DNA from: a virus
Virus record (IMG/VR): IMGVR_UViG_3300048587_001100
Coordinates: 1-52,940 of that record
Length of the DNA: 52,940 bases
Direction: 5' to 3' (one strand)
Position 1 is the first letter of the stretch; each line of letters opens with the position of its first letter. The notes under the pieces are model-generated. The model had not been told where the DNA came from. It ran no database searches and saw nothing but the letters and a program-made list of their open reading frames with translations. Shown here piece after piece: positions 1 through 24,734 of the stretch. Made by a program: the position numbers and the translations under genes.

Positions 1-2097
1 TCAGGCCTCAGTCGTCTTTGTCTGAGGCTCATCAGGGGTAGCCAAAAGAGAACGATCGACTTGACCCATGGAATCGCTCGGAGGGGTTGCGTCGGCCAAC
101 GACCCCATGACACACCCTGCGTCACCGTTCGCAGCAGCAATCTCGGATGTGGACGCCTTAACTGATTCGAGCCCAGCAAACATCACCGGGGCCTCAATGG
201 GCCTGCTCAATACCTCCGTGACTTCGGGGTCGGGCTGTGGCTCCACGGACGAGAGCTTGCGATGCAGATTGAACGTTCGTCCATGGGCACGACGTAGGAT
301 TGTGTTGTAATCGAGGGGTGTGATCTTTATGTTTGTGCCTATTGCCGTCTCAATGGCGGTGCGTCCAACGGTGCTGCCTAATACATACACCGCGAATTCA
401 GTGTCCTTCATCACCGCGTTGCCGGCTTGAAGCTCGAGCGGATAGCGTTGCCCCTGAACAACCTCGTCATGCGTCAATTGAGAGCCCCCGCGCTTTAGCT
501 CGATTACGAGGACTTTTCTGACTCCGATGACCTCTCCATCCTCGAACTGGTCGGCAGCGTAGACGCTCACTGAGCGATCAGGCAGGACCACGAAATCAGC
601 CCTACGAACACTCAGTTCGGCATCTGTTCCACCTAAAAGTTGGCCGACCGTTGTCGCCATCTGCCTGTTTGAGGTGAACTCGACGGAATCATACTCCGGG
701 CCGAAGATCCATAGTCCCCGCCCAAACAGCGGTTGAAGTTGGTGAAGCTCGTCCGTCTTCCTGTCGTTTACGAGTTCCTGGAGCTCAGCAATCAGATCAA
801 GGCGTCGTTTCAGTTCGGAAAGGACCACCTCCGCAGCGGAGGCAGTCCATTGTTCCATGATCTGGTTCCATGTATCGAGGTCTTCGGGTGACGCGGCGGC
901 GAGCTTGTGCAGGAGGTCGTAGCCGGTCCGAGCCTTCTCCATTTTCGTGAAGACGTCGACGGTCTTTGTCAACTCAGCATCAGTGAGTAGCGGGCAACTG
1001 CGCTGCACTTGGTCGACAAAATCACCGATGGCCCGTTGAGAAATGCGCGGGAGTTCCTCTAGGGCCTGCCGCTGCTGACTGAGGGCCTCAATCTTCCTCT
1101 CGCGTCTGGAGTCTGCGAGAATGCCATCGAGTTCCCTCGTTACGTGGTCGTGGACTGCATGTTGAACGGCTATGCTTCTGTGGCTCTCGTAGAAGCCCGT
1201 CCAATCGGGTTTCACATCTAGCTTTAGAACATCGGCCTCGACGATGAAACTGTATCGTTTTGCGGCTTGGGTGCGGCCATCGAGGATGGCACCGCGCTCG
1301 CTAAATCCTTCCCACGATGGCTGACCGACCATCTTTTTATTCACCCACCAAGTGACGCCACGCAACTTGATCGTCCGATCTTGGGATGGCGCATCAATGC
1401 GGTGGACGACAATGTTGCCAATATCCGGTACCGTCACCGCCTTCGAAGTTGCATAATGCAAGCCGATGAGTTGCAGCGGTTTCTTGTTGAAGGTCACTGA
1501 GAACGATGGGTCAACAATGAACTTTGAGCCTATCGCATCCACCAACGTCTCCTCTGCAAGGAGGTGACGTCGAACGGATCCAAAGACTCTGGTGCCGTGC
1601 CCGGGCTTGGCACTAGATTCGATCTGGGTAAAACGGAACGGAGCGTGGTGGTCACTGGTCAGATCAACGCGGGCAGTTATGCTCTTGCCCTCGCGCCACG
1701 TTTCTACATGGTACACGCTGTCGAAGCAGAAGGCAGAATGTCGACCCTTACCACTTTGGCCGAAGGCGGTGCGGGTTCCTTTGGCCCGATTGCCTTTCGG
1801 GATTTCGACCCGCGATCCTTGTTCGGCCAGCCGATTGTAAGAGAGGGTCCGCCAACGGCGTGCGAATTGATCTGGTGTCATGCCTTCGCCGTTGTCGCGG
1901 ACCTCGAAAGCTCCTCCATGTTCGGCTGGCCATTGAACGTGGACATCGGTGGCACCCGCGTCATAAGCATTGGCGACGAGCTCTACAATAGCGATTTTGG
2001 GATCACTGATCAGTTGGCCAGCGTGATCGGCCATGAAGTGCTGGCCGAACGCGAACGAGTCGTCTGAAAACAATCCCGTTTTCTGCTTCTCCGTCAC
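1..2097 (-). CDS. GHKL ATPase fused to Shedu-like PD-(D/E)xK nuclease domain, putative defence protein
   Basis: This is a 698-residue protein with a GTG start and its stop codon at the window edge. The N-terminus has GHKL (Hsp90/MutL/histidine kinase) ATP-binding boxes: E39/N43/D46 in ELVANAYDAGA, the DNGEG box at 68-72, and a glycine-rich lid GQSGKGRHS near 113-121. A charged helical middle (about 320-450) follows. Residues 450-590 read as a PD-(D/E)xK nuclease of DUF4263/Shedu type: a conserved LFGRGLWIFGPEYD entry, then D501, then E533-L-K535 with a nearby glutamine. The inferred role is an ATP-gated nuclease in anti-phage defence, acting in the cytoplasm. It has the same orientation as the phage tail genes upstream but is visibly lower in GC (about 55% against about 70% in sampled lines), which fits recently acquired cargo. 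The GHKL call is firm; the nuclease call is probable. Confidence 0.8.
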   Translation of the reverse strand: MTEKQKTGLFSDDSFAFGQHFMADHAGQLISDPKIAIVELVANAYDAGATDVHVQWPAEHGGAFEVRDNGEGMTPDQFARRWRTLSYNRLAEQGSRVEIPKGNRAKGTRTAFGQSGKGRHSAFCFDSVYHVETWREGKSITARVDLTSDHHAPFRFTQIESSAKPGHGTRVFGSVRRHLLAEETLVDAIGSKFIVDPSFSVTFNKKPLQLIGLHYATSKAVTVPDIGNIVVHRIDAPSQDRTIKLRGVTWWVNKKMVGQPSWEGFSERGAILDGRTQAAKRYSFIVEADVLKLDVKPDWTGFYESHRSIAVQHAVHDHVTRELDGILADSRRERKIEALSQQRQALEELPRISQRAIGDFVDQVQRSCPLLTDAELTKTVDVFTKMEKARTGYDLLHKLAAASPEDLDTWNQIMEQWTASAAEVVLSELKRRLDLIAELQELVNDRKTDELHQLQPLFGRGLWIFGPEYDSVEFTSNRQMATTVGQLLGGTDAELSVRRADFVVLPDRSVSVYAADQFEDGEVIGVRKVLVIELKRGGSQLTHDEVVQGQRYPLELQAGNAVMKDTEFAVYVLGSTVGRTAIETAIGTNIKITPLDYNTILRRAHGRTFNLHRKLSSVEPQPDPEVTEVLSRPIEAPVMFAGLESVKASTSEIAAANGDAGCVMGSLADATPPSDSMGQVDRSLLATPDEPQTKTTEA

Positions 2098-2671: not shown

Positions 2672-3613
2672 TCACTCCAGGGCCAGCGGCGTCCAGTCCA
2701 CCAGCGGATCAATCTGGAACTGCAGGATGGCCGGCGGCTCATGGGCCTGTTCCTTGGCGTGCCCCTCCCCATCGAGCGGGTACGGATGGATGGGCAGGGT
2801 GCCGTCGGGCAGGACGATTTTGCGCTGCGCAAAAGTGCCAGGGGTGGTCGAGTTCTCTACCAGTTCATGCCGGCCCCGGTCCTCCAGCGACAGCTTCCAG
2901 CCCCGGATGTTCTTCTGGAGTTCATACGTCACACGCCAATAGCTGACGGTCACCACGCTGCCGGCTTCGGTGGTGTAGGTGGCTTCATGTGGGCCATCGG
3001 CGGTGATGTTCCCCATCCTGAGCGTACCGGGCACGTAGGTGATCCCTCGGATGGTCACGGGGGCGGCGCTGACGGTGCCCTTGTACGCCTCGGCCCCCAG
3101 GTCGTTGTAGTCGGTCTCGTTGCGGGTGATGGTAAGCGTGCCCAGTACCCGCTCACGCTGGGGCTGCTCGTCAAACAGTTCATCGGCGCTGTTGACGATG
3201 GGCTTGCCCTGCCACTCGCCCTGCGCCTCCTCATCCCAATCACCCGGCTGGGGTGAGGTGTCGAAGAACACGGGCTCCGTCACGGCGCTGCCGCCGTAGC
3301 TGTACGTAGGCGGGGCTTCCAGTGGGTTGGTGCCGCTGGCTTGGGTGGAGGTGCCGCCGCTGCTTTCGCTGTACTCGACGGTGACCAGGTAAGTGGTCAG
3401 GTCGTCCTGGTGGCTGGCCGCCTGGATGCTCTTGACCTTCATCGCCGACGCACCGGGGAAGCTGTCGCCGTAGCTGGGCAGGCCCGGTGCCAGGCGGGCG
3501 GTCTCGCTGTTGTCGCCGGCCTGGACCTCCACCACATAGACGCGGGTGGCGGTGAGCTTGCCGTCGGAGATGCCCGACTCCTGACTCTTGATGTTGACCG
3601 ACTGAACTGCCAT
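2672..3613 (-). CDS. hypothetical phage tail-region protein downstream of tape measure
   Basis: A 313-residue beta-rich protein with no recognised domain. It is cotranscribed with the tape measure gene and starts at the last base of that gene's stop (TGATG arrangement). It lacks catalytic motifs, signal peptide and membrane segments. In siphophages the gene after the tape measure usually encodes a distal tail or tail-tip protein, which is the inferred role. The C-terminus ends in a run ILQFQIDPLVDW that may mediate assembly. The family could not be named from sequence. Confidence 0.6.
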   Translation of the reverse strand: MAVQSVNIKSQESGISDGKLTATRVYVVEVQAGDNSETARLAPGLPSYGDSFPGASAMKVKSIQAASHQDDLTTYLVTVEYSESSGGTSTQASGTNPLEAPPTYSYGGSAVTEPVFFDTSPQPGDWDEEAQGEWQGKPIVNSADELFDEQPQRERVLGTLTITRNETDYNDLGAEAYKGTVSAAPVTIRGITYVPGTLRMGNITADGPHEATYTTEAGSVVTVSYWRVTYELQKNIRGWKLSLEDRGRHELVENSTTPGTFAQRKIVLPDGTLPIHPYPLDGEGHAKEQAHEPPAILQFQIDPLVDWTPLALE

Positions 3614-8314: not shown

Positions 8315-9574
8315 TCAGGTGCCGGGGGCCATCTCCAGCACGGCGACGGCCTTGGCATCGGTGAGGCGACCATCGGCACGCTGGGCGATGTAGAAGCCCA
8401 CCTGACGCCGGGTGGCGTAGGCCTCCTCCAGACGACGGACGAACGGGTTGGCCACGAAGCGGACGCGGTAGCGGCTGAAGTCGCCGAAGGCGATGGGCTT
8501 CTTGCCCGCCGCGATGTCATCCATGGCGGGGTTGACCACGTAGTCGTAGCCCAGCACCTGGTTGGGTGACCCGGCACTTCCGGGGGTGAAGATGTAGCGG
8601 TTGTCGCCGTCCTTGAGCTTGCGGATGGCGGCCAAGGTCTGATCGTTGAACTGCCAGCGGCCACCCCGGCGACGGTACGGGGCCGGCACCGAGTGCAGCA
8701 GGTCCAGCAGTTCGTCGTAGGTGATGGCGGTGGCTGATGCGGCGTCCTTGCCGACCGTGGCACCGGTCACGAAGCCCTGGGGCTGGCCGGTGCCGCTGCC
8801 CAGGGTGGTCCGCTTGTTCAGCTTCGCGCCGATACGCTCAGACGCCAGCGCCAGAATCTCAGCGGCGAGATCCACCTCGCTGTCTTGGAGCAGCTCGATC
8901 GGCACGAGCACGACACCGCTGTCGTAGGTGAATGCGCCGAGTTCCTTGTTGCCGAAGTCGGGATCGACATCATCGTCAGCTGGGGCGTTCTCGGCCTGCT
9001 CGTCGCTGCCTTCGTTCGCGGTGTCATCCACGGTCAGCATGCTCATGGGGTTGCCGGTGGCGGTGGTGATGACCCGAGCGCCCGCATCGAGCACGCCCGT
9101 GAAATCACGCAGCGACTTCACCAACTCATTGGAGAAATCGCGGGTGCCGACGACACCGATGCCGGCGGTGGTCAGGGCCCGCTGTTCATCGCCTTCGATG
9201 GGCAGGTGTCCGGTGACCAGGAGACTGCGCTGCTCGGCGTCCAGGCCGGACATGCCGCCCCGCAGGTAGGCGTCAAAGGCCTGGTTGCGGCGCTCGTTCA
9301 GGCGCTGCCGATCGGTTTGCTGTCCGCTGCGGCCGTCCACATCTTCACGGCCGGGCTGCCGCTGGCGCTGCTCGCCCTCCAGCGCCACCATCTGCTCGTA
9401 GCGATCGACCTGGGCCTTGATCGCCTCGGCGCGGGTGTTCAGGTCGTCGAACTTGGCGGACTCTTCGGCGGTGAGGTCGCGCTTGTCGGTCTCCGCCGCC
9501 ACCAGGATGCCCCGCATCTCACGCAGCACGTCGCCGCGTTGCTCGTTCAGTCGCTTGATCTGTTGCCAACTCAT
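8315..9574 (-). CDS. HK97-fold major capsid protein
   Basis: About 419 residues from the ATG at 9574, which has an AAAGAG leader; an in-frame TTG at 9607 would add 11 residues. The first 100 residues form the delta-domain coiled coil (RGDVLREMRGILVAAETDKRDL, then DDLNTRAEAIKAQ), which the prohead protease removes. The rest is the HK97 fold, including FTGVLDAGARVITTATG, GVVLVPIELLQDSEVDL and the C-terminal FGDFSRYRVRF segment. It assembles the icosahedral shell. It follows the protease gene in the standard order. Confidence 0.93.
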   Translation of the reverse strand: MSWQQIKRLNEQRGDVLREMRGILVAAETDKRDLTAEESAKFDDLNTRAEAIKAQVDRYEQMVALEGEQRQRQPGREDVDGRSGQQTDRQRLNERRNQAFDAYLRGGMSGLDAEQRSLLVTGHLPIEGDEQRALTTAGIGVVGTRDFSNELVKSLRDFTGVLDAGARVITTATGNPMSMLTVDDTANEGSDEQAENAPADDDVDPDFGNKELGAFTYDSGVVLVPIELLQDSEVDLAAEILALASERIGAKLNKRTTLGSGTGQPQGFVTGATVGKDAASATAITYDELLDLLHSVPAPYRRRGGRWQFNDQTLAAIRKLKDGDNRYIFTPGSAGSPNQVLGYDYVVNPAMDDIAAGKKPIAFGDFSRYRVRFVANPFVRRLEEAYATRRQVGFYIAQRADGRLTDAKAVAVLEMAPGT

Positions 9575-9609
9575 TTGGTTGCTCTTTCGCTTGCTGTTGC
9601 TGTTCAAAG

Positions 9610-9628
9610 GACGCCAACACTTGGCGTC
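9610..9628 (-). promoter_or_regulatory. perfect hairpin in capsid gene leader
   Basis: GACGCCAA and TTGGCGTC form an 8-bp stem with a 3-base loop in the short gap before the major capsid gene. There is no T run, so it is not a terminator. It may stabilise or mark the 5' end of a processed capsid mRNA; that is inference. Confidence 0.5.
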
Positions 9629-9688
9629 TCACTCATGGCCCCCGACTGGTCCGCGACAGCGCCGCAGGTCGGATAGTGGCCGGTCTGT

Positions 9689-10285
9689 CTACATCGCCGC
9701 CTGGGCCTGCCGCAGCTTCTGCTGGGCGGTGTGCAGGCGGGTTTGGTCGGTCAGGGCTGCCGCTGCGGCGATCGCTTCGGGATCGACACGCAACGACAGG
9801 GATGTCTCGGCATAGGCCGGCACGCTGGTGACGGTGACCTCGCGCAGGTCAATCTCGCTCAGGGTCCGCAGTGTGCCGGCGGGTGTGCGGCTGAAGGCCT
9901 GACCATTCCGGGGGACCAAAAAGCCGAAGCTCATGCCCCGGATATCGCCGCGACGGACCAGGGCGATCGCGTCACGGCCATGGCTGGTGTCCGCGTTGAC
10001 GTCGATCTCCACACGCAGGCCTTTGGCATCTTCGGCAAGGCGAAGTGTGCCGTTGCCGCTGGTGCCCAGCAGCTTGGCCGGGTCGTGTTCGAAGAGAGCG
10101 CGGACCTGCCGACCACTCTGGAGCGAGCGGCCGAAGGCACCCGGGACGATCAGCTCACGGAACTTCCCAAGGTCCACCTCGGCATTGAAGACGGCGGCGT
10201 AACCGACAAGGGTGTTGCCCTGGCCGGCTTCACCGTCCCGAACCTCCAGAGCCTCAAATTGGACGTATCGTGTTTCCATGCTCAT
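9689..10285 (-). CDS. prohead serine protease (HK97 family, U35)
   Basis: A 198-residue protein with the family pattern: VGYAAVFNAEVDLG near the N-terminus, RALFEHDPAKLLG carrying the catalytic histidine, and GMSFGFLVPRNG carrying the catalytic serine. It cleaves the capsid delta domain during head maturation. It lies between portal and capsid genes as in HK97. Confidence 0.93.
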   Translation of the reverse strand: MSMETRYVQFEALEVRDGEAGQGNTLVGYAAVFNAEVDLGKFRELIVPGAFGRSLQSGRQVRALFEHDPAKLLGTSGNGTLRLAEDAKGLRVEIDVNADTSHGRDAIALVRRGDIRGMSFGFLVPRNGQAFSRTPAGTLRTLSEIDLREVTVTSVPAYAETSLSLRVDPEAIAAAAALTDQTRLHTAQQKLRQAQAAM

Positions 10286-10340
10286 CTGTTGATACTGTCA
10301 CGATGCTGATGACTTCACTCAGTCGTCATCAAAAAATCTT

Positions 10341-11861
10341 TCAGCAGGTCAGGGCGCGGACAATCTGCTCAGCCCGGCCCGACCCCCACTGGGCCAGCAG
10401 TGCATCCATGGTGCCAGTCTCAAAAGCCTCCACGACGGCGGCACGGGCGTCCTCGCAATGGATGGCTGGGTAATCGTGTCGGTTCAACGGGGCGGCCAGA
10501 ACCTGCTCCACGTGGCCGGCATGGTCGGTGAACCACTCATCCGCCCAGCGCCGGAACCCGGCGGCATCGCCTGCGTGCTTCCTGGCGGCGCGGGCGACGG
10601 CGTTGATTTCTTTCGTGGTGATGGTCCTGGCGGCGTTGAGCAGCAGGGCGCGGGCGGGCTCGTCGTTGCGCTGGGATGCGGGGGCGCTGTTGAGCGGGCT
10701 GAGCACCTCATCCCCGCCGGTGATTGGCGGCAAGCCCTCCAGCTTGCGGGCTTCGTTCACGGTCATGAAGGGCCCGCCGACGGCGGTCTGGTGGGCGGCG
10801 TACCGATCGCGCAGGCTGGCCCGCACCAGGGCGTCGAGGTTGAACCGGATTTGCAGACGCTGCCGCTCGTCCTCGCGCAACAGCTTGCGGTTCAACTCCT
10901 GCTCAATCTTGATCGCCCAGGGCTGGATGGTCTCGGTCCTGAACTCTTCCGTTGCGTGCTCGACATTGTTGTAATGCGCCTGGTCATACAGCCCCAGCTT
11001 GTGGGGTGGGCAGCGGTAGATACCGGCGATCTCCAGCGTCTGGTGCTTTCGACTTTCCAAGGCCTGGGCCTCTTCTGGCGACACACCCATGCGGTGGACC
11101 TTGAGACCCGGCGCGGCGGCGACCTTATGGGCGCCGCCCAGACCGGTGTATTCGGCGCGCCACTTTTCCATGAAGAGGTTGAATGACTCGCGGCTCATGG
11201 GTGGCAGTTCCACCACGGAGCCGATGTTGCAGCCATTTGCGAAGAACCTCGCTGAGAACTGCTCCAGGGCGACCGAGAGCCCGATGGTGTTTCGTGCGAC
11301 TTGGATCGGCGACAGGCCGACGATGCCGTCGAGGGTCACGTTGGGGGTGTGGATGATGTCCTGCGGCCTGAGCGCCTGCCCCGTGCCCGCCAGCCCGGTC
11401 TGGTAGAGCAGGTCGCCGTTGCGGCGCAGGGGTGCGGTAGAGCCGGCCCGGAGCGGGTACAGGCCGATGGGGGTGTAGGTGTCGTCACGCTCAATGAAGG
11501 CGTAGCCGTTGCCCCACAGCAGGAGGTTCATCGCGAAGGCCTCCACGAACACCGCCGGGGTCATGTACGGGTTGGGTGAATCGAGCAGCGCCCGCACCGG
11601 GTGGTCATAGACCTTGCCCCCGTCGCGGCGGTCGATGATGTGGATCGGCAACGAGGCCAGGGCGTTGGCGATGACCGTCACGCAGGAGTACACCGCACGA
11701 CAGGCGAGGGCTGACTCGTGCGTGATGTTGACGCCCGCATCCGAGGGGCCCGCGACGTAGGGCCCGAACAGGGTCAACGGCGACAGCAGCAGATCGCCGC
11801 TGCGGTGCTCGACCGGGGCGGGTGGTGCGGAGCGACGAAATAGACTGGCAATGAATCCCAT
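10341..11861 (-). CDS. phage portal protein (HK97 family)
   Basis: A 506-residue protein. It shows the HK97 portal signatures: an N-terminal region ending in ALACRAVYSCVTVIANALASL, PNPYMTPAVFVEAFAMNLLL, LSPIQVARNTIGL, and VEHATEEFRTETIQPWAIKIE. It forms the dodecameric DNA channel at the capsid vertex. The last 120 residues (from about 385) are an extra C-terminal extension rich in Ala and Arg, longer than the minimal family. It sits immediately after the large terminase gene. Confidence 0.93.
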   Translation of the reverse strand: MGFIASLFRRSAPPAPVEHRSGDLLLSPLTLFGPYVAGPSDAGVNITHESALACRAVYSCVTVIANALASLPIHIIDRRDGGKVYDHPVRALLDSPNPYMTPAVFVEAFAMNLLLWGNGYAFIERDDTYTPIGLYPLRAGSTAPLRRNGDLLYQTGLAGTGQALRPQDIIHTPNVTLDGIVGLSPIQVARNTIGLSVALEQFSARFFANGCNIGSVVELPPMSRESFNLFMEKWRAEYTGLGGAHKVAAAPGLKVHRMGVSPEEAQALESRKHQTLEIAGIYRCPPHKLGLYDQAHYNNVEHATEEFRTETIQPWAIKIEQELNRKLLREDERQRLQIRFNLDALVRASLRDRYAAHQTAVGGPFMTVNEARKLEGLPPITGGDEVLSPLNSAPASQRNDEPARALLLNAARTITTKEINAVARAARKHAGDAAGFRRWADEWFTDHAGHVEQVLAAPLNRHDYPAIHCEDARAAVVEAFETGTMDALLAQWGSGRAEQIVRALTC

Positions 11862-11882
11862 GGTGTTCCTAACTCCCCCCGA

Positions 11883-13565
11883 TCACACGAACGCGAACGG
11901 GAAATCTTGATAAAAGGTCGGCTCGTCATCCCTGGCCGCGCGGATGTCGTTGCCCAGGGCGAAGCTCAGGGCGTCGATTCCGTCAATCTTGCGTGTGTCC
12001 TTGGGTTTCACCGTCTTGATGAGCCCGTCCGCGTCCTCGTGGACCTCCACGTTGGAGGCCATCCAATTCAAGATTGGGTGATTGCCGTGCCGCAATCGAC
12101 GCTCCAGCACCAGCCGCTCCAGGTGCCGCAGGACTGGATTGGTCATCGTGCGGCGTTGCCAAAACTCAAAGACCGTGAAGCCGTCGCCCTGCAACTGACT
12201 GGCGATCTGCTGAGCAAATTTCGGGTCATAAGCCAGCTCCGTGATCCTGTAACGCTGGCCCAGTTCCACGATGCGCCGGCGGATGTGGTCATAGTCGATG
12301 TAGTCGCCGGGGGTGGTTTCGAGGTAACCATCCTGGACCCACTGGCGATAGGGCACGCCGGCTTTCTTCTCATGGTCCAGCACCGTGTCGGCAGGGATCC
12401 AAAAATACGGCAGCACATCGCGGGTGCCGTCCACGTTGGGGAAGACGAGCACCAGGGCGGTGACGTCGTTGGTGCCCGACAGGTCCAGCCCCGCCCAGCA
12501 CTCCCGCCCCTCGTAGTCGGCGGGGTCGATGTCGGCGGCACACTCGAGCCACCGATCGAAGGGCAGCCATTGCGAGATGCTGCCCACCCATTGGTTCAGG
12601 CGGAACCGGCGGAAGTTGTTTTGCAGGGTAGGTGAGTCTTTGGCCTTCATCGCTTCGGCGCGAACCTCATCCTCCATGATGGTCACGCCCAGTGACGGAT
12701 TCGCGGCACGCCATGCGGCGGGGTCGGTGATGTCGCAGCCGTCCGGTGCGGCGGCGATGCAGGCGAACGTGTAGGGGTCGTCAATGGCACCGCTGATGAT
12801 CTTGGCGGCCCGGTCGTGCAGTTCCCACCCGATGGAGTCGCGGTCCTCGCCGGCGGTCGTGATGGTCATGGTGAGCGGCTGACGACGGGCGGCACCAGCA
12901 TATTGGAGGGTGTTCCAAAGCTGGCGGCTCCGGCCCTTCAAGCGGTGGGCTTCGTCGATGACGATGCCGCTGGCGTTCACGCCGTCGGCGCTGTCACCGT
13001 CACTGGAAAGAGCCTGATAGAAGCCCGACGTGCGATGGACCACCAGGCGCTTGGTGTGCTCCTTGATGTCGATGAGTCGCTGGAGTGCCGGCGACTTGCG
13101 GACCATCTTGGCGGCTTCCTGGAAGATGATGCCCGCCTGGGTGCGGGTGGTGGCGGCGCTGTAGAGCTGGGGCTCGGGCTCACCATCGGCGATGAGCAGG
13201 TAGAGCGTGATCGCGGCGGCGAGGGTGGATTTGGAATTCTTTTTGGCCACCTCGATGTAAGCCTGCCTGAACCGACGCGAACCATCCGCCCGACGCCAGC
13301 CGAAGATGTGACCACACACCTCGCGTTGCCAGGGCATGAGCCTCATGGGGATGGTGCCCGCCGCGTCGGCCTCGGGCGTGGGATGGCTGGGTGCGATGCG
13401 GATGAACCGCTCGCAGAACTGGGCGAACCGATCGGCGGCGGCCTGGTCGAAGTAGCAGCCCGCCAGCAAGGCGCTGTGGTCGATGCGGCCACGCACCCAG
13501 TGCGCCCAGCCTTCGCGACGGGCGCGGGCGAGCGCGGCCTCGAGTTGTCCGGCAGGTGCGATCAT
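11883..13565 (-). CDS. phage terminase large subunit (HK97-type)
   Basis: A 560-residue protein. The ATPase domain carries a deviant Walker A AKKNSKST (about 107-114), as is usual for this family, and Walker B IVIDEAH (about 201-207). The C-terminal RNase H-like nuclease starts at WAGLDLSGTNDVTAL. It packages DNA into the prohead and cuts it. The start overlaps the small subunit stop (ATGA), so the two are coupled. Confidence 0.93.
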   Translation of the reverse strand: MIAPAGQLEAALARARREGWAHWVRGRIDHSALLAGCYFDQAAADRFAQFCERFIRIAPSHPTPEADAAGTIPMRLMPWQREVCGHIFGWRRADGSRRFRQAYIEVAKKNSKSTLAAAITLYLLIADGEPEPQLYSAATTRTQAGIIFQEAAKMVRKSPALQRLIDIKEHTKRLVVHRTSGFYQALSSDGDSADGVNASGIVIDEAHRLKGRSRQLWNTLQYAGAARRQPLTMTITTAGEDRDSIGWELHDRAAKIISGAIDDPYTFACIAAAPDGCDITDPAAWRAANPSLGVTIMEDEVRAEAMKAKDSPTLQNNFRRFRLNQWVGSISQWLPFDRWLECAADIDPADYEGRECWAGLDLSGTNDVTALVLVFPNVDGTRDVLPYFWIPADTVLDHEKKAGVPYRQWVQDGYLETTPGDYIDYDHIRRRIVELGQRYRITELAYDPKFAQQIASQLQGDGFTVFEFWQRRTMTNPVLRHLERLVLERRLRHGNHPILNWMASNVEVHEDADGLIKTVKPKDTRKIDGIDALSFALGNDIRAARDDEPTFYQDFPFAFV

Positions 13566-14035
13566 GATCGAAGAAACTGCTCCAACTCATCGTGTGCGGG
13601 TGTTGGTGCTACGTTGATCCGGCTGCGAGCGGACGGGCACATACCAAAGCCCTGCTCCAGGCGGTATAGCTGGTCGGCGAGTGAACGAGCGATGCTGACG
13701 TAGGGCGACGGCTGCAGGAATTTCACTTTGCCCGACTCGTCGCGGATGGGCACCACCTCGCCCGTGCGCTGGATCATCGCCTCCGCCTGACGCCACCTGA
13801 CCCACAACACGCAGTAGCGGGCCAGGGCGTTACGGTCGATGCGACCGGCCAGCCCGGCGGCGATGAGGCTGGGCACGATGCGCTGCCATTCCTGCTTGGC
13901 TTCCTTGGACATCCAGGTCGGACAGACCGGCTTGCCCTCGGCGGCGGCCTCGTTGATCGGGGCGCGGTCCGGGCGGTAAGTGCCCTCCAGCACCTTGGCC
14001 GCTGTCGGTTTGGGTTGTGGCCCCCGCAGGCCCAT
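13562..14035 (-). CDS. phage terminase small subunit, P27 family
   Basis: A 157-residue protein. MGLRGPQPKPTAAKVLEG at the N-terminus is diagnostic for the P27 family, and the body has the expected helical pattern (ALARYCVLWVRWRQAE, PYVSIARSLADQLYRLEQ, FGMCPSARSRI). It recognises the packaging site. It overlaps the methyltransferase gene upstream and the large terminase downstream. Confidence 0.93.
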   Translation of the reverse strand: MGLRGPQPKPTAAKVLEGTYRPDRAPINEAAAEGKPVCPTWMSKEAKQEWQRIVPSLIAAGLAGRIDRNALARYCVLWVRWRQAEAMIQRTGEVVPIRDESGKVKFLQPSPYVSIARSLADQLYRLEQGFGMCPSARSRINVAPTPAHDELEQFLRS

Positions 14036-15102
14036 CAGGCTGCCTCCTGTCGTGACGACATGCCCAGTAGGTTGTCGCGGATGTGTTGCGCGATCGACCG
14101 CATGAGCAGCGGCGGCACGCTGTTGCCGATGCGTCCGACCTGTTGCTCATACGTTCCTACGAACTTGAACTCATCGGGGAACGAGCCGAAGCGGGCGAAC
14201 TCACGCACGGTGAAGCGCCGGCGCTCAGCCCAGTGCATCGCCCCGTGCATGCCCAGCACGCCGTCGTTCTTCCTGATCGTGTTGGCGGGTCTGTCGGGGT
14301 GGAACTTGAGGCAGTTGAACCCAGCAAGTCCGAGGTAAGCGTGCCGGTTCTTGCCCACTGGCACAAGGTGCCAGTCCTTGAAGCTTCCATGCCTTTGACC
14401 TGCGGCCAGGAGCATCGCCACTTCCGCAGGATCATTCACCACATCGGCGATGGCCTCACGCGTCGGGATGACTCGTGACCATGGCTTGGGGTGTGATGGC
14501 TCCACGCCCAGGTCATCACGTACACCGATGAAGATCAAGCGCTCACGGGCCTGGGGGACGCCGAAGTATTTGGCGTTCAGGACGCGGGTGCGGACGCGGT
14601 AGCCGCTGGCCTTTAGCTCGCGAAGGCAGTCGGCGAACACCAGCTTCATCTTGCCGGCGACCATGCCCTTCACGTTTTCCATCACGAGTGCCCTGGGCTT
14701 GAGCCCCCGCAGCAGCCGCACGTAATCGCGGAACAACTGGTTCCGCTGGTCGGCAAAGTCGCGGCGTCCGGCGGTGGAGAAGCCCTGACAGGGTGGTGAG
14801 CCGTCGAAGACGTCAAGCTCACCTGGCTGCAGTCCCGTGCGTGCCAGCACTTCATCCACAGAGAGCTTGGTGATGTCACCAGCAACGTCCACGTCGGGGA
14901 AGTTCGCCTTGAAGGTGTTGATCGCTGCCTCGTCATACTCGACCGCGAACAACTCGCGAAAGCCCGCCATGCTGTACCCAAGAGAAGATCCACCGCACCC
15001 CGCAAAGGTGCTGATCACCGTCAGGGCATTGGCTGCGCGTGGGGCAAGATGAGCCTGCCAAGCTGCGGCAAGGGAGCGTGAGTAGGGAGTTGATTGGATC
15101 AC
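14035..15102 (-). CDS. DNA (cytosine-5) methyltransferase
   Basis: 355 residues from the GTG at 15102, which overlaps the ParB-like gene stop as GTGA. It shows the ordered C5 methyltransferase motifs: I STFAGCGGSSLG, IV GSPPCQGFSTAGR with the catalytic cysteine near residue 105, VI VMENVKG, VIII QARERLIFIG, and X GNSVPP. It transfers a methyl group from S-adenosylmethionine to cytosine. No cognate restriction enzyme is adjacent, so it is probably an orphan enzyme that protects phage DNA from host restriction. The recognition sequence cannot be read from the protein. Its position just upstream of the terminase genes suggests late expression. Confidence 0.93.
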   Translation of the reverse strand: MIQSTPYSRSLAAAWQAHLAPRAANALTVISTFAGCGGSSLGYSMAGFRELFAVEYDEAAINTFKANFPDVDVAGDITKLSVDEVLARTGLQPGELDVFDGSPPCQGFSTAGRRDFADQRNQLFRDYVRLLRGLKPRALVMENVKGMVAGKMKLVFADCLRELKASGYRVRTRVLNAKYFGVPQARERLIFIGVRDDLGVEPSHPKPWSRVIPTREAIADVVNDPAEVAMLLAAGQRHGSFKDWHLVPVGKNRHAYLGLAGFNCLKFHPDRPANTIRKNDGVLGMHGAMHWAERRRFTVREFARFGSFPDEFKFVGTYEQQVGRIGNSVPPLLMRSIAQHIRDNLLGMSSRQEAA

Positions 15103-15656
15103 AGCGGCACCACGCCTCCACAGTGTGGACAGGTCACCGTCTCGACATCGTCGGCGCACGACTCGTCAATCTCTTTGCCTGCCGCGTCGTCGGGCAGTGA
15201 TGGTCGCCCCCGCGCCTCACTGATCAGGGCGGCGATTTCGTCGGGGGTCCAGCCGGTGGCGAAGGCGGCCTCGGCGTTCTCCACCTGCAGTGACTCAAGC
15301 TGGCGGGCCAGGGCCTCACGATCCCACTCGGCCAGTTCCGCCGCGCGGTTATCCGCGATCGCGTAGGCCGTCGCCTCTGCGCCCACCAGGTCGGAGCGGC
15401 TGACGGCGATGTGGGTCCAGCCCAGTTCGCGGGCGGCGGCAAGTGTGCCGTTGCCTGCGATGATCACACCATTAGCGTCGGCAAGAATCGGCCGCTGCTG
15501 ACCGAAGCGCCGCAGGCTCCCCTTGATGGCCTCGAGGTTGCGCACGGGGTGAAGCCGCACGTTCGAAGGGTCAAGGGTCAACCCCTCGATTGGCTCGGCC
15601 AGGCTGCGCAGCGCTGGGCTGATGTGGTTCAGGTTGACGTTTGAGGTTTTGGACAT
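15099..15656 (-). CDS. ParB-like nuclease-domain protein with C-terminal zinc motif
   Basis: About 185 residues. The ATG at 15656 is chosen because GGAG lies 9 bases upstream and the ParB fold begins directly after it; the longer open frame is proline/arginine-rich and unlikely. The ParB/Srx motifs are visible: LRRFGQQRPILADANGVIIAGN and AYAIADNRAAELAEWD. The C-terminus ends in CPHCGGVV, half of a zinc ribbon. The domain is similar to the N-terminus of the ParB-methyltransferase fusion in the right element. In phages such proteins sit beside methyltransferases and may guide or regulate them. It is coupled to the C5 methyltransferase gene. Confidence 0.82.
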   Translation of the reverse strand: MSKTSNVNLNHISPALRSLAEPIEGLTLDPSNVRLHPVRNLEAIKGSLRRFGQQRPILADANGVIIAGNGTLAAARELGWTHIAVSRSDLVGAEATAYAIADNRAAELAEWDREALARQLESLQVENAEAAFATGWTPDEIAALISEARGRPSLPDDAAGKEIDESCADDVETVTCPHCGGVVPL

Positions 15657-15850
15657 TGGCATGGGCTCCATGGACGACTTCTGGGGCGTCGGATACGGGG
15701 GACTACCGCTCGGAAGGGCTTCGGCCTGGCGGCTCCATGTGGGGCGTACTGGCGGGGTTTCTGCTGGTTCTGGTGGATCAGGCCAGCCGAACCCCCACCC
15801 CCCGAAACCTGCCGGCGCGCGCAAAAGGCGGGGCGATGGGTCTCCAGCGG

Positions 15851-16192
15851 CTACCCTCCCATCCTCGGATGCCCCCTCCCCCTGCGCCTCATCCATCGCC
15901 CTGTCATGCGTCCGACCAAGGCACGCACCAGCGCCAGCGGCCAGCCTCGAACGCGATGGATGATGATGTGGCGGTTGGGTAGTGGCGCGAACTCGCAGCG
16001 CCCGCCCTCCAGCGGCTGATAGAGCGTGACCGGGCCGAACTGCAATGCGATCACCCAGTCTGTTGGCCTGGACTGATGGCTCTCGGTGGTCAGGAAGTGA
16101 AGACGATCGAGCAGTCGCACGGGCTCCATCGCAGCGCACGCTGCGGCGAACTCCTGGAGAGCGGCGGCGTAGTGGTCGCTTGTGTGATTCAT
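15851..16192 (-). CDS. hypothetical protein
   Basis: A 113-residue protein of unknown family. Its ATG overlaps the upstream stop (ATGA). The N-terminal half is helical (YAAALQEFAAACAAME), and the C-terminus is very basic (MTGRWMRRRGRG), which could bind nucleic acid. It belongs to the HNH-to-ParB cluster of short phage genes with overlapping ends. Confidence 0.55.
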   Translation of the reverse strand: MNHTSDHYAAALQEFAAACAAMEPVRLLDRLHFLTTESHQSRPTDWVIALQFGPVTLYQPLEGGRCEFAPLPNRHIIIHRVRGWPLALVRALVGRMTGRWMRRRGRGHPRMGG

Positions 16193-16407
16193 TGTTTTGC
16201 CCCCCGCGCCGGCGAGGGCACGCCGTTGAGATCGAACGTTGCCTCCATCTCATCCAGGCGCTTTGCGGGGAGGAGGATCAACTCCTCGATGCGGCGGTCG
16301 ATGAGCTCGATGAGGGTCCGCTCGGCGTCGGCTTCGTCCGTGTCAAGATAGAACCGCTTGTTGATGTGGTGCGCCAAATCGATGGCCAATGGGCTGGGCA
16401 TAGTCAT
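16189..16407 (-). CDS. hypothetical small protein
   Basis: A 72-residue, mostly helical acidic protein (DEADAERTLIELIDRRIEEL). It overlaps both neighbours by four bases. No domain is recognised. The tight coupling on both sides supports it as a real gene of the operon. Confidence 0.6.
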   Translation of the reverse strand: MTMPSPLAIDLAHHINKRFYLDTDEADAERTLIELIDRRIEELILLPAKRLDEMEATFDLNGVPSPARGAKQ

Positions 16408-17018
16408 TCTCCTGTATGGTCAGTGATGTCAGCTACGACGCTGACGAAAGATCGGATGAGTGTGCACCTGGCCCCGCCCGCCAGAGTCGCCTGCACGTCG
16501 AAACGCATGGACCGACGGCCGGCGGGTAGCGTGCCGGTCAACACGCTGGACAATTCAAACGCGATTGAGGCCGGACCAGTGCTGGTGGTCGTGGGTTTGA
16601 TCACCTGGCCCGCGTTGCCGTCGATGATGCGATCACCCGTCGCTGTCGATGCGGCGCTGAGGCGAATGGTTGCGCTGGTGAGGTCGGGCCAGTGGTCGCT
16701 GGCGAATGTCAACTGACGGCCGACGGCGAACAGGTAGTCGTCGCCTCGGATCAGTGTGATTTCGCCTGCCTCCACCTCGGGGGTAATCACACGCACGATG
16801 CCCGCGCCGATGGCGTTCAGGCGGGTGGTGATGGTCGCCAGGCTCTCCACGAGGTTGGAGGGGATGCCGCCGCTGTCGAAGTTCTCCAGGGCGGTCGTCA
16901 ATGCGTTGATGGCGTCGAGCAGGCCCTCTGGCACCTGACCCCCGCCCATGCCCTGCACCTCGGCGGCGACAGCGGCATGGATGTCCTGCATTGAAATCAG
17001 CAGAATGGGACCGCTCAT
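16404..17018 (-). CDS. hypothetical protein with beta-rich C-terminal domain (virion-like)
   Basis: A 204-residue protein. Residues 1-75 are a helical stretch with heptad spacing (LLDAINALTTALENF, LVESLATITTRLNAI). Residues 80-200 are beta-rich and contain ITLIRGDDYLFAVG and SATIRLSAAS, a pattern seen in baseplate-upper or fibre-associated domains. A trimeric coiled coil with a beta cap is a reasonable picture. It is odd to find it upstream of the terminase genes. Function is unknown. Confidence 0.6.
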   Translation of the reverse strand: MSGPILLISMQDIHAAVAAEVQGMGGGQVPEGLLDAINALTTALENFDSGGIPSNLVESLATITTRLNAIGAGIVRVITPEVEAGEITLIRGDDYLFAVGRQLTFASDHWPDLTSATIRLSAASTATGDRIIDGNAGQVIKPTTTSTGPASIAFELSSVLTGTLPAGRRSMRFDVQATLAGGARCTLIRSFVSVVADITDHTGE

Positions 17019-17320
17019 TCACCACCCCCGGCATGAAGCTCATGATGGCAGCCGACGCACACGGCCATGAGGTTGGCAGGGTCGAGCCGGCGCTCAGGTG
17101 CTTGGCTGATGGGGACACGATGATGAACATCGATGGCGGGTGTGGTCCGGCCTTGCCCGTCGCATCGCTCGCACAGGGGGTGCAGTGCCAGGTGCTCGAC
17201 CCGCAGCCGACGCCAGGCACCGTCATACCCTCGCGCTGCCGATGATGGCTTGCGAGTGAGCTCGCGGCGGCGTGGGCGGCGAAGGATCAGGTGTGGGGGT
17301 TTCGTCGGCATATTGAGCAT
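17015..17320 (-). CDS. HNH endonuclease
   Basis: A 101-residue protein. The HNH core reads CERC, DVHHRVPI, ANLMAVCVGCHHELH, giving two zinc CxxC pairs and the His/Asn/His catalytic set. Small HNH proteins next to terminases in HK97-like phages support DNA packaging cleavage. Its start overlaps the next gene in the four-base style of this operon. The basic N-terminus (LILRRPRRREL) probably contacts DNA. Confidence 0.9.
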   Translation of the reverse strand: MLNMPTKPPHLILRRPRRRELTRKPSSAARGYDGAWRRLRVEHLALHPLCERCDGQGRTTPAIDVHHRVPISQAPERRLDPANLMAVCVGCHHELHAGGGE

Positions 17321-17374
17321 TTGGAGAATCGGCGCCCGTCACCATGAGGGGCTCGATAGTTGATACTGCGAAGC

Positions 17375-18154
17375 TCAGGTCGGATTCACGAGCCGCACCC
17401 GAGAAAATGTGAATCCTTTGGTCGGCCGCCGGCGGCTCATGGCCTCGCTGATCGACGCAGCAGATACGCCCGTGGCCTTGCTGGCCTGCTTCGCCGTAGG
17501 CCACCGTCCGACCTCTTGGCCATCGCGATGGGCGATGATGATGGTGGTGGTGGACCGTCTCGCTGTTGACCGCCTGCGCAGGCGCTTCATCGCTCCGTGA
17601 ATGGTGGTGGGTGTGATGCCTGCCATGGTGGACGCCTCGTCGTGCGTCAGGCCCAGCAGCAGCAGCGGGACGATCGCCCTGACGTGGCCGCTGTATCCGG
17701 GGCGTGGCTCGGATGCGTCGAAGACCTGACCCGCCGCAAGCTCCACATCCTCCCGACGGATGACCTCCTGCAGCGGGGTGGTGGTGAATTGGAGCCGACG
17801 ATCGGCGGGCTGATCATGGTCATGCTGATCGACATGGCGCATGAGCAAATGGAGCCCCGCCCGGCGGCGGAACCGCGTTATCAGGGTTGACCAGCGGCGA
17901 CGACATACGACGCGGGCCAGCGCCCCGAAGTCACCCACGCACCCGCCCCGCACCCACGCCCGCAGTGCCGTCACCAGCAGCGCCGCCCGCAGCTCCTGCA
18001 GGAGGTCATCGCGGGGCAGGTCAGGGACATCACGCCGGCTGGCATCGCTCAGGATGTGGCGGCACTGATCAAGCAGCAGCGCCGCGGCGTCCTTGTCACC
18101 GGCGGCGGCGCGCTGAGCGGTGGTGTTGATTTCGGCGTCGGATGGCCAGCGCAT
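17375..18154 (-). CDS. sigma-like regulator with C-terminal NUMOD1-like DNA-binding repeat
   Basis: About 259 residues from the ATG at 18154; a longer frame reaches 18286 but its first 44 residues are low-complexity Pro/Ser/Ala. The N-terminal half resembles sigma region 2 (DDLLQELRAALLVTALRAW). LGLTHDEASTMAGITPTTIHGAMKRL is a region-4-like helix-turn-helix. The last 50 residues (HRDGQEVGRWPTAKQASKAT then GVSAASISEAM) match the NUMOD1 repeat usually found in homing endonucleases. The probable role is control of phage late transcription. The joint occurrence of the two modules is unusual. Confidence 0.65.
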   Translation of the reverse strand: MRWPSDAEINTTAQRAAAGDKDAAALLLDQCRHILSDASRRDVPDLPRDDLLQELRAALLVTALRAWVRGGCVGDFGALARVVCRRRWSTLITRFRRRAGLHLLMRHVDQHDHDQPADRRLQFTTTPLQEVIRREDVELAAGQVFDASEPRPGYSGHVRAIVPLLLLGLTHDEASTMAGITPTTIHGAMKRLRRRSTARRSTTTIIIAHRDGQEVGRWPTAKQASKATGVSAASISEAMSRRRPTKGFTFSRVRLVNPT

Positions 18155-18293
18155 AGCGCCGCTGGAACTCGGCGCTGTCGGGGTCGAGTTCGCCGGCGAG
18201 GGCTGCCCAGCAGGCCCACACGAAAAACTCCCGGTCCTGGCTCCAGGCGCGGATGTGCTCGGAGGTGAGTCGATCAAGGGCTGCACTGGTCAT
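18096..18293 (-). CDS. small hypothetical protein overlapping two sigma-like genes
   Basis: A 65-residue frame (EHIRAWSQDREFFVWACWAALAG) with natural amino acid composition. It overlaps the end of the upstream sigma-like gene by 20 bases and the start of the next gene by about 60. Such short acidic/helical proteins are common next to small phage regulators. The composition supports coding, but the overlap lowers confidence. Confidence 0.5.
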   Translation of the reverse strand: MTSAALDRLTSEHIRAWSQDREFFVWACWAALAGELDPDSAEFQRRYALAIRRRNQHHRSARRRR

Positions 18294-19494
18294 GTCCTAT
18301 CACCTCGATGATCTTGCGCCGCAGCCTGCGCAGGGTGATCGACACGCTCGGCGATACCACGCCCCATTGCCGTGCCAGCGCCGCTGTCGTCAGACCACGG
18401 TTGTTGAGCGCGGCCTCGAACAGCTCTCGCTCCCGCCGGCTCAGCCTGGCGACGATGCGGCGGGTAAGGTCGAACGACAGGATGGCTGGATCGATGCCCA
18501 GCTTGTCGATCAGCGGGCGCAATGATGATGGTGGGCGGGTGCGCCGTGCCGGCACCTTACGCCGGCTGTCTAACTCCATGATCCGGTCGCGGATGCTGAC
18601 CAGGGTCTCGTGCATCGCGCCAGAGGTAAGGCCCAGAGGCCGGCCGACGGTCACCAGTTCGGCGATGGGTTGCCGCAGCACGGCGCGGAATACCTCGATC
18701 TGTCGCCCCGAAATCACCCGCTCGATCTGCCGACGCCTGACCATCGCTTCGGCCATGGTGATGCCCAGCGTCCGCTGGAATGCGGCGGCATCGCGGGGGC
18801 GGCGGTATGAGCGGGCGAACGGCTGGAAATTCTCGATGTCGATCTGTGCCACCGTCACCCTGGCCCGCCGCATGGCCTCGCTCAGCGAACTGAGCCGTTC
18901 ATACCCGACCAGGTGGGCAACCTCGGTCCTGCTCTGGTCGCTTGATCGAGTGGCCTTGATGGCCTTGGCCGCCGCCTGGCCAAGGTATCGCTCAGGCTCC
19001 TGGATGATGTGCTGGGCGATCTGCTCGACCCTGGCGTCCAGGTAGTGCGGCGGGGCTGGGTCGATGACATCCTGACCCACCAGGGCCTCGTGGCGGTGCC
19101 GTTCCGCGCGGATGGCCTGACGTGTGTGGCTCTTGACGACTTCGCCGATGAGCCGGGCAATGGACGCATACAGGAGCGTCGTCAACTTACAGCCTCGAAA
19201 CGCATCAAATCGGGGCAAGACATAGACCCACAAACGCAACGCCACATGCTGGTAGGCGTCCTCCAGGTCATGCCGTTGCGCCCTGGGCAGCCGGCGATGG
19301 AGCTGCTGCCAGATCATCCGGTCCACACCACGCAGGATTACATCGGCCTCAGCCCTGATCAGCGGGACATCTTCCGTTTCGTGCCCCGGGCGGGGCCGAT
19401 AGGGGTACTGCTCATGGGCCCGGGCGCTGTAGGCGGCGGGGCCGATGCGGGCGGCGTGGCGGGGCAGGTCGGTCGGGGGGCTGGCGGTGGTCAT
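18274..19494 (-). CDS. RNA polymerase sigma-70-like factor (phage encoded)
   Basis: A 406-residue protein. Residues 35-110 resemble sigma region 2 (RAQRHDLEDAYQHVALRLWVYVLPRF, shown here split as RAQRHDLEDAYQHVALR and LWVYVLPRF). The C-terminus has a region-4-like helix-turn-helix (LSRRERELFEAALN, then TTAALARQWGVVSPSVS). The 150-residue middle is unlike standard ECF factors. It may direct host polymerase to phage promoters. The dyad-repeat array lies about 100 bases upstream of its start, so it is probably the regulated first gene of the leftward operon. Confidence 0.7.
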   Translation of the reverse strand: MTTASPPTDLPRHAARIGPAAYSARAHEQYPYRPRPGHETEDVPLIRAEADVILRGVDRMIWQQLHRRLPRAQRHDLEDAYQHVALRLWVYVLPRFDAFRGCKLTTLLYASIARLIGEVVKSHTRQAIRAERHRHEALVGQDVIDPAPPHYLDARVEQIAQHIIQEPERYLGQAAAKAIKATRSSDQSRTEVAHLVGYERLSSLSEAMRRARVTVAQIDIENFQPFARSYRRPRDAAAFQRTLGITMAEAMVRRRQIERVISGRQIEVFRAVLRQPIAELVTVGRPLGLTSGAMHETLVSIRDRIMELDSRRKVPARRTRPPSSLRPLIDKLGIDPAILSFDLTRRIVARLSRRERELFEAALNNRGLTTAALARQWGVVSPSVSITLRRLRRKIIEVIGHDQCSP

Positions 19495-19593
19495 CTCAGA
19501 GGATGATTGGCCGCCGCCGCATCGGCTTAGCCATTTCCGAGGGGGGTCTCGGTCATCAGCCCCAGCCCACCGCTCACGACGGACGCATGCCTA

Positions 19594-19769
19594 GTTTCCT
19601 GTGGGACATGTCCTGTAGGAAACTAGTGTCCTGTAGGAAACGAGTAGTTGTATTTAGTTTCCTGTAGGAAACTAGTGTTCTGTGGGAAACTATAGGAGTT
19701 GCCGGGCGGTCGTGACGATCTGATCTAGGATACTTCCGATGGAGTCCTAAAGGATGTCCCAAAGGACAT
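19594..19769. promoter_or_regulatory. array of seven dyad repeats (operator-like), consensus GTTTCCTGTAGGAAAC
   Basis: Five 15-16-bp copies occur at 19594, 19608, 19626, 19657 and 19675, with dyad centres spaced about 14, 18, 31 and 18 bp. Arms are GTTTCC/GGAAAC around TGTA, with small variations (GTGTCC, GTGTTC, GGGAAAC). Two related dyads follow near 19745 (TCCTAAAGGA) and 19756 (TGTCCCAAAGGACA). The array fills the 323-base gap between the sigma-like gene and the putative replication gene, and the DNA here is AT-richer than its surroundings. It is most likely a repressor or activator binding array; a replication iteron role is the alternative. Confidence 0.75.
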
Positions 19770-19817
19770 TAAGCGAAGTTGGTGCATTCGGTCGGCGCGG
19801 ACCTTCCCCACAGAGAT

Positions 19818-21470: not shown

Positions 21471-21666
21471 TGGCCTCTCTCCGAAGGGGGAACCCGGTGG
21501 CGTTGGTGTGGTGAATGATGGTGTGGGTGGTGGTGTTGCCGGCGGCGGGGCGTAGGTGACAGCCGGGCCTTCCGGGAAGACGGTGCCGTCAAGAAAGACG
21601 CCGCCGAAGCTGATTAGCCTCGACAGTGCGTCGCTGGTCCTTGCTGGCTCCTGACCCCTCGCCATA

Positions 21667-21699
21667 AAAAACCCTGGGTGTCTCGCACACACCCAGGGC
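21667..21699 (-). terminator. intrinsic terminator-like hairpin
   Basis: CCCTGGGTGT and ACACCCAGGG form a perfect 10-bp stem with a 7-base loop, followed on the minus strand by six T. It lies just before the replication gene in that gene's own direction, so it either insulates it from upstream transcription or acts as an attenuator. Confidence 0.75.
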
Positions 21700-22056
21700 T
21701 TAAATGCCCTTCACCGGGCAGATGGCTATGTTGGGCGGGTGCGAGCCGCAATGTCTGCCAGATAATACGGCCCTACCGCCGCACTATTCGCCAGACCGAT
21801 CGCCAGCCAAATTTCCATTCAATTTTTGGAACTGACGTTGTGAGTGGGTAATGTACCAGATGACAATCGTGGATGCAAGCGCAATCCCCTGTTTTTGCTG
21901 AACTTGTGAACATGGTTGTGTGCCGGCGATCGCCAAGCCGCAACTGTAGGAATCTCAAAGGATTGCTAGTATTGGTGCCACTATGTACGCGCTCCCTGAT
22001 GGGCAAATAGAAGACCCCGCCGGCGTCTCTGCCGGACCTCCGCCAGAGGTCTCGCA

Positions 22057-22083
22057 TGAAAAACCCCGCCGGTGGGGCGGGGT
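22057..22083 (-). terminator. intrinsic terminator
   Basis: ACCCCGCC and GGCGGGGT make an 8-bp stem with a 5-base loop followed on the minus strand by TTTTT. It would end leftward transcripts from the small membrane protein genes. Confidence 0.75.
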
Positions 22084-22445
22084 CTGGGTGGTGGTGCTGC
22101 CGGGTGGTTATCGTCGCCGGCGGTGCCGCTGGCCGTAGGCCTCCATCTCCAGGGCCAGCCGCTCCACCTCACCCGCCCACACACGGACCTCGGCGAGGTT
22201 CGACTTCAGGCCTGCTGATGCGCAAGCTGGTGGGCATAGGCAAGCCCGGAATTCTAAGGCTACGGCGCGACTCTGGCGAGGCCGCTGGGCGCTCTTTGCG
22301 CCGCCGTGGGCAAGTTGCTGGAGCTAGCCCCGTGGTCAACAGAATGCCCACAGACCGTGGCCGTCGACCGCCATGAGTTTTGAGGGAATTGCCTCGTTGT
22401 CATGCCGCGTGAAGGAGGAGCGGGGGTTCTACACGGGCTGCCAGT

Positions 22446-22622
22446 CTATTTGGAGCATCCAATGCAAAGGGAGAACAGGACAAGTATCACGCCGATAATA
22501 ATGGCAGCAATATTGCCCTGTGCAACACCGTCGACAATTTTATCAAGCGATGCACCTGGACCGTCTGCTCGTACCTCAGTTGAGGCAATTGCTAACACAA
22601 GAAGCAAGGTTAAGACTCGCAT
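22446..22622 (-). CDS. small exported single-span membrane protein
   Basis: 58 residues from the ATG at 22622, which has a strong AAGGAGA ribosome site 6 bases upstream. MRVLTLLLVLAIASTEVRA looks like a cleavable signal peptide (cleavage after VRA). The mature part is short and ends in one transmembrane helix (IAAIIIGVILVLFSLCIGC). The region is about 48% GC, well below its neighbours. A role in superinfection exclusion or host envelope change would fit the lysogeny region, but no family is recognised. Confidence 0.6.
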   Translation of the reverse strand: MRVLTLLLVLAIASTEVRADGPGASLDKIVDGVAQGNIAAIIIGVILVLFSLCIGCSK

Positions 22623-24577: not shown

Positions 24578-24588
24578 GTGAGACCTCC

Positions 24589-24700: not shown

Positions 24701-24734
24701 AAACCTCGTTTTTGGCTCAAAAAACGGGGTTGCA

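Follow-up and report, generated by a model that had tools for sequence, protein, structure and literature searches.

A GHKL ATPase gene with a Shedu-related nuclease domain at the edge of a prophage record: a divergent representative of a described architecture

The window analysed here is the whole 52,940-nt stretch of the IMG/VR record IMGVR_UViG_3300048587_001100, and the gene at its very beginning raises the question of what a GHKL ATPase joined to a nuclease does at the edge of a prophage. The gene is a single ORF of 698 aa occupying positions 1-2097 of the minus strand, with a GTG start at 2097 and a TGA stop at 1-3, and its frame runs uninterrupted over 713 codons from stop to stop. The initial annotation gave no strand, and every motif position that it had assigned to the GHKL boxes and to the C-terminal D501 / E533-L-K535 core was found to be exact. 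The features of the gene are listed in Table 1.

Table 1. Features of the GHKL-nuclease gene in the window
Feature	Position	Strand	Basis or remark
Whole GHKL ATPase-PD-(D/E)xK (predicted) nuclease gene	1..2097	-	ORF and full-length homologues
Coding part of the gene	4-2097	-	698 aa; stop codon 1-3
GHKL ATPase domain, residues ~20-205	1483..2040	-	Pfam HATPase_c_3; MORC/TRAP1/Hsp90 structural matches
N-box E39-LVANAYDA47	1957..1983	-	E39 and N43 both 67/67
G1 box D68-N-G-E-G72	1882..1896	-	D68, G70, G72 each 67/67
G2 box G113-QSGKGR119	1741..1761	-	G113, G116, G118 each 67/67
S5-like transducer domain, residues ~206-305	1183..1482	-	Model; structural match spans MORC ATPase cassettes
K280 in the S5-like domain	1258-1260	-	K in 62/67, R in the other 5
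Helical linker/middle region, residues ~306-442	772..1182	-	Secondary structure of model
Shedu-related PD-(D/E)xK (predicted) nuclease domain, residues ~445-620	238..765	-	hhalign to GHKL-Shedu relative; predicted topology
E450, first acidic residue of the E-D-ExK motif	748..750	-	67/67
D501, catalytic aspartate	595..597	-	67/67
Lengthened D-to-ExK hairpin, clade-specific, residues 502-532	502..594	-	Spacing comparison
E533-L-K535, catalytic ExK	493..501	-	E533 66/67, K535 67/67
Q548, after the ExK strand, invariant	454..456	-	67/67
C-terminal tail, residues 654-698, probably disordered	4..138	-	pLDDT < 50

Relatives of the window protein were found by more than one kind of search. In Rhizobium, Agrobacterium, Azospirillum and Tritonibacter, tblastn on plasmids gave full-length relatives (34-38% identity), together with more distant plasmid relatives at about 21-24%. 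Scans of the genome and viral collections with single-sequence patterns recovered no relative; the alignment-based scan recovered those that had been missed, at least 160 in bacterial genomes, 80 of which were kept, and two full-length ones in IMG/VR. Tblastn of 50,697 GenBank phages gave no relative. Four weak matches on viral contigs (L094-L097) were dropped because their similarity was confined to the ATPase; two of them, L094 and L095, have Pfam HATPase domains at both ends. The full-length homologues are 28-39% identical to the window protein and keep the ATPase and nuclease residues. When 67 full-length sequences (the window protein and 66 homologues) were aligned, E39, N43, D68, G70, G72, G113, G116, G118, E450, D501, K535 and Q548 were identical in all 67, and E533 was kept in 66. 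Since these residues are invariant across so many full-length sequences, the motifs are not due to chance, and the ATPase and nuclease sites are jointly under strong selection. A decayed nuclease was ruled out, as every catalytic residue is intact.

The clade, with at least 160 loci, reaches across Proteobacteria, Bacteroidota, Bacillota, Verrucomicrobiota and Cyanobacteria, and the gene is rare and patchy: an even sample of the class returned, besides the seed genome, one partial match among 288 other alphaproteobacterial-class genomes. The window protein forms a long branch (1.52) without a close relative, and its nearest relatives are phylogenetically mixed and located on plasmids and islands.

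The N-terminal part, residues ~20-300, forms a GHKL ATPase of the MutL/Hsp90/MORC type together with its S5 (transducer) domain. Pfam HATPase_c_3 matched residues 34-147 with an E value of 7e-14, scoring 52 bits where the cut-off is 25, and both the NCBIfam and the PDB sequence searches pointed to MutL, which among solved proteins is nearest to the ATPase in sequence. When the full-length protein was modelled (pLDDT 77.9, pTM 0.51), it was composed of GHKL and S5 domains, a helical linker and a mixed alpha/beta domain, and its top PDB matches, TRAP1, HtpG and the ATPase cassettes of MORC2/3/4, cover the N-terminal half. From general knowledge of GHKL enzymes we take E39 to be the catalytic residue and N43 to be the Mg-binding one, and by analogy with MutL and MORC it is probable that K280 is the ATP-contacting lysine.

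For the C-terminal half, in which the initial annotation had expected a PD-(D/E)xK fold at residues 450-600, the segment of residues 415-640 was modelled alone (pLDDT 82.5). The order of its elements is helix, three strands, helix and strands, a predicted alpha-beta-beta-beta-alpha-beta arrangement with D on the first strand and ExK closing the third, which is the order expected of PD-(D/E)xK enzymes. Foldseek with this model against the PDB gave nothing significant (best E 0.04), so that the expected fold is only weakly borne out, by its topology; the sub-significant list includes EcoO109I, McrC, MspJI, EndoMS, AspBHI and BspD6I fragments. The fold search against BFVD likewise gave no significant match, and the sequence profile of the nuclease retrieved only chance matches (Lsm3) from the PDB. 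We concluded that a PD-(D/E)xK fold is likely for this domain, short of proof.

Whether this nuclease is related to Shedu is not answered by the existing family models. Pfam SduA_C (PF14082/DUF4263) matched none of the 67 clade members at E <= 0.01, and a six-frame PF14082 search of 30 clade-carrying genomes gave a match in only 3 of them, at other loci, and none in the other 27. The PADLOC SduA model matched only 10 of the 67, weakly (best 2e-4), the match on the window protein lying at residues 338-469 (E 2e-4). The relation was found through an intermediate. By hhalign, the nuclease profile of the clade matched the distant GHKL proteins L008, L009 and L011 with a probability of 99% and an E value of 5.5e-18, and L008 itself scores 27.9 bits with PF14082, above the cut-off of 27; because of these two links, the profile-profile evidence supports the view that the window nuclease domain is related to Shedu nucleases. 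Matched directly to five stand-alone SduA sequences, the profile gave only a moderate result (probability 48%, E 1.9e-4). PHROG 6203 is common to the window protein, L008 and L093, and in the first of these it matches best over residues 318-581. The claim that one gene joins a GHKL ATPase to a Shedu-like nuclease is thus borne out by Pfam, by the structural matches and by hhalign.

The spacing between the catalytic D and ExK is 31-40 residues in the clade versus 14-15 in L008, L011 and the distant relative L172, and this lengthening is the likely reason why the Pfam Shedu model fails on the clade. The LFGRGLWIFGPEYD motif of the window protein lies at residues 457-470. Judged from the sequences, what is new here is a widespread clade with lengthened D-ExK spacing that Pfam's Shedu model misses. 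Since the clade is invisible to that model and mostly missed by PADLOC's, surveys will undercount ATPase-Shedu systems.

The surroundings of the homologues were then considered. On annotated plasmids the gene was found beside MmeI and Cas9 (L002), beside a HepT-like RNase (L003), adjoining an OLD-like ATPase and UvrD-helicase pair and a restriction endonuclease (L005), and beside AbiEii (L006). The plasmid of L003 is a nopaline-type Ti plasmid, on which the homologue has the gene for nopaline dehydrogenase about 1 kb away. In the genome loci, 121 direct-neighbour proteins matched 533 PADLOC models at 1e-5, against 29 models for a comparison set of 122 proteins with the same summed length, taken from other parts of 12 carrier genomes, a ratio that exaggerates the enrichment because the totals count models rather than genes and one gene can match many models. 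Independent of this ratio are the kinds of system represented, which comprise Gabija, a DISARM-type methylase, type IIG, BREX-like and PARIS, the matched models including GajA, DrmMI, type IIG RM, PglX and AriA. One homologue, 39% identical, lies inside a phage contig (L092) between the integrase and endolysin/tail genes. The homologues are therefore found in defence and mobile neighbourhoods, as the initial annotation had anticipated. No neighbour family occurs in more than 6 of the 76 loci, from which we concluded that the gene stands alone.

Two further observations were made at these loci. A stand-alone Shedu gene lies 11-12 bases downstream of the GHKL-nuclease gene in L004:9995-13400 (11 bases) and L015:3704-7110, so that two Shedu-type nucleases stand in tandem; the copies at the two loci are 72% identical to each other, and the L004 copy matches SduA_C at 3e-20. 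A protein of about 300 aa and of unknown family is encoded near the gene in 5 of the 76 loci (L053, L054, L025, L038 and L007; for example L054:4662-5573), 34 bases upstream of it in L053 and L054.

The solitary state of the gene bears on the possibility that the protein serves as the restriction enzyme of a type II restriction-modification pair such as HgiDII/BbrUII, which would cut unmethylated sites and need a cognate methyltransferase. The top NCBIfam match is indeed the BbrUII/HgiDII restriction enzyme (NF050001, E 1.9e-18), but at 66.3 bits it is far below the cut-off of 550 and its best stretch, residues 37-209, is the ATPase. PADLOC REase_II models match 66 of the 67 clade members, and in L172 the gene overlaps that of a C5 cytosine methyltransferase, to which a C5 methyltransferase of the prophage adjoining our gene is 31% identical; the gene for this prophage enzyme, however, is 12 kb off, beside packaging genes. 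Tblastn found no C5 methyltransferase, nor one of the N6/N4 type present in the window, at 88 homologue loci, and no partner gene is conserved. A type II enzyme with a partner methyltransferase was rejected on account of these 88 loci, and we regard a restriction-modification role as scarcely probable.

A MutL/MORC-like enzyme of DNA repair or topology, serving housekeeping rather than defence, would agree with the kinship of the ATPase to MutL; moreover, some paraMORC3 genes occur alone, without a conserved neighbourhood, which Iyer et al. read as pointing to possible distinct functions (PMC2292703). Such a role is nevertheless extremely unlikely, given the very patchy occurrence of the gene, the mixed phylogeny of its close relatives on plasmids and islands, the defence genes in which its neighbours are rich, and VcSduA, a protein of the same architecture that is proven in defence.

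We consider it quite probable that the window gene encodes an anti-phage nuclease that acts as a stand-alone, single-gene system of the paraMORC3 / Shedu type I-D kind, with a prophage or island as its probable carrier. The Shedu-like single-gene defence proposed in the initial annotation holds as to the domains with their conserved active sites, the nuclease homology, the solitary gene and its defence-rich and mobile surroundings, and for the window protein and its clade we infer defence activity itself by analogy.

Whether the gene belongs to the prophage was judged from its position and composition. It lies 107 bases downstream of the prophage tail operon on the same strand, and its GC content is 56% versus 65-67% in the structural genes, with a GC3 of 0.62 versus 0.75-0.88 (mostly >0.78). 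The record starts exactly at its stop codon, as trimming at a gene boundary would give, and no phage relative was found with the gene at the same place: L098, the only near-identical virus contig, shares 6.5 kb of identical sequence but stops at 2215, immediately before the gene. These points, with the low GC3, would fit a gene of the host chromosome that the provirus caller included at the edge, in which case it might still function in defence. The low GC, however, suits recent acquisition either way, and the shared strand and short distance to the tail operon, the homologue at the integrase end of the phage contig L092, and the phage relatives in PHROG 6203 argue against a host gene, which we hold to be a serious possibility, somewhat short of an even chance. 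Around the gene, attachment-site-type direct repeats and tRNA genes were absent, and no promoter-like site was found on its strand. For the tail neighbours at 2204-2665 and 2672-3613, relatives were too scarce to reveal which genes come next in sister phages. Taken as a whole, the gene is likely to be prophage cargo, short of proof.

The rest of the record showed several features of its own. Two unrelated structural modules lie back to back, a minus-strand one at 8315-26411 with HK97-type terminase, portal and capsid, and a plus-strand one at 30653-52940 with lambda-type terminase (GpA nuclease), portal and head protease-capsid. Between the two come genes for a tyrosine integrase (23219-24577) and a serine recombinase (24762-26411), and the record is either two adjacent prophages or a joined assembly. 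The C5 cytosine methyltransferase gene mentioned above is at 14035-15159 on the minus strand (Pfam 1.6e-66), and the second prophage encodes, at 36596-37990 on the plus strand, a fusion of a ParB-N domain with an N6/N4 DNA methyltransferase. A 624-aa protein encoded at 19818-21692 on the minus strand, with a lower GC3 (0.70), is matched by neither Pfam nor PHROG. Three near-palindromic direct repeats, TTTCGTTTTGTG...GCGCACAAAACAA, spaced by 47 and 56 bases at 34874-35012, lie inside or beside the ORF 34868-35320 and are possible operator or iteron sites, and TCCTGTAGGAAAC-type tandem repeats occur at 19611-19690, just upstream of the gene at 18274-19494.

ATP-driven N-terminal dimerisation is established for GHKL enzymes, and a mechanism may be proposed for the window protein on this basis. 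The GHKL ATPase would mediate dimerisation, and ATP binding would shut the N-terminal clamp, which hydrolysis would reopen. The clamp might close on incoming phage DNA or on a DNA state specific to the phage, such as free ends or replication intermediates, and the closed clamp would carry the C-terminal PD-(D/E)xK domains to the DNA, which would then be cut or nicked. That an ATP-closed clamp licenses the nuclease, as the initial annotation suggested, is also the hypothesis of the VcSduA study (PMC12137116), and is plausible for the window clade as a proposal by analogy. A more speculative and rather unlikely extension is that the clade forms a lineage of its own, made up of ATP-gated clamp nucleases that current Shedu models overlook. 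Its lengthened D-to-ExK hairpin would couple clamp closure to cutting, and the proteins would respond not to a sequence but to the physical condition of phage DNA (ends, crossings, replication forks). The 67-sequence alignment is a ready basis for testing clamp control of the nuclease.

The initial annotation knew of no described system with this architecture, a claim that does not stand, as the window protein is a divergent representative of an architecture already described both as paraMORC3 (PMC2292703) and as VcSduA, Shedu type I-D (PMC12137116). Among the more remote systems, MutL, MORC and Hsp90 share the ATPase and S5 fold and the ATP-driven clamp chemistry, whereas the C-terminal domain of the window protein is probably a PD-(D/E)xK nuclease and not a MutL endonuclease or a CW/coiled-coil module. 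BbrUII/HgiDII (NF050001) also combines a GHKL-type ATPase with a restriction domain, but the match is ATPase-confined and the clade has no methyltransferase partner. The nuclease of Shedu SduA proper (PF14082/DUF4263; PDB 8ti8, 8ps4) appears related at the profile-profile level, with common E...WxFG...D...ExK landmarks; unlike the window protein, the stand-alone SduA proteins examined have no GHKL domain, and the SduA_C-positive GHKL relative L008 has a far shorter D-ExK spacing than the clade. For stand-alone EcSduA, DNA-end sensing and cutting have been reported (reviewed in PMC12904381).

The architecture of a GHKL ATPase with a restriction fold was described as paraMORC3 by Iyer, Abhiman and Aravind in 2008 (PMC2292703), and the window protein has its features, namely GHKL motifs with S5 followed by a C-terminal restriction-fold domain (here predicted) with E-D-ExK. 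According to that paper, a subset of paraMORC3 genes has no conserved neighbours and the family is prevalent in proteobacteria and Bacteroidetes, like the window clade; its accessible text contains neither the lengthened D-ExK hairpin nor an explicit placing of the clade. Shedu type I-D is defined by an enzymatic (GHKL ATPase) N-terminal domain fused to a Shedu nuclease (PMC12137116), and the window protein likewise has a GHKL ATPase N-terminal to a Shedu-related nuclease. VcSduA, from the V. cholerae VSP-II WASA and composed of GHKL and DUF4263, was shown in 2025 to block phage by means of both domains; defence was lost with E27A (GHKL glutamate) or K557A (nuclease lysine), and cells with VcSduA survive (PMC12137116). 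The authors of that study modelled VcSduA as a dimer whose middle domain resembles a clamp, and hypothesised that the ATPase controls the nuclease (PMC12137116). A gene at a prophage edge is thereby tied to a type of defence that was not validated until 2025. Compared by description, VcSduA differs in the spacing from the ATPase E to the nuclease K (530, E27-K557, versus 494-512 in the clade) and in its recognisable DUF4263, which Pfam does not recognise in the clade. It is like the window protein in being the product of a single gene, with an N-terminal GHKL domain bearing motifs I-IV and a C-terminal Shedu-type PD-(D/E)xK nuclease, and the two active sites that VcSduA needs for defence are both intact, by sequence, in the window protein.
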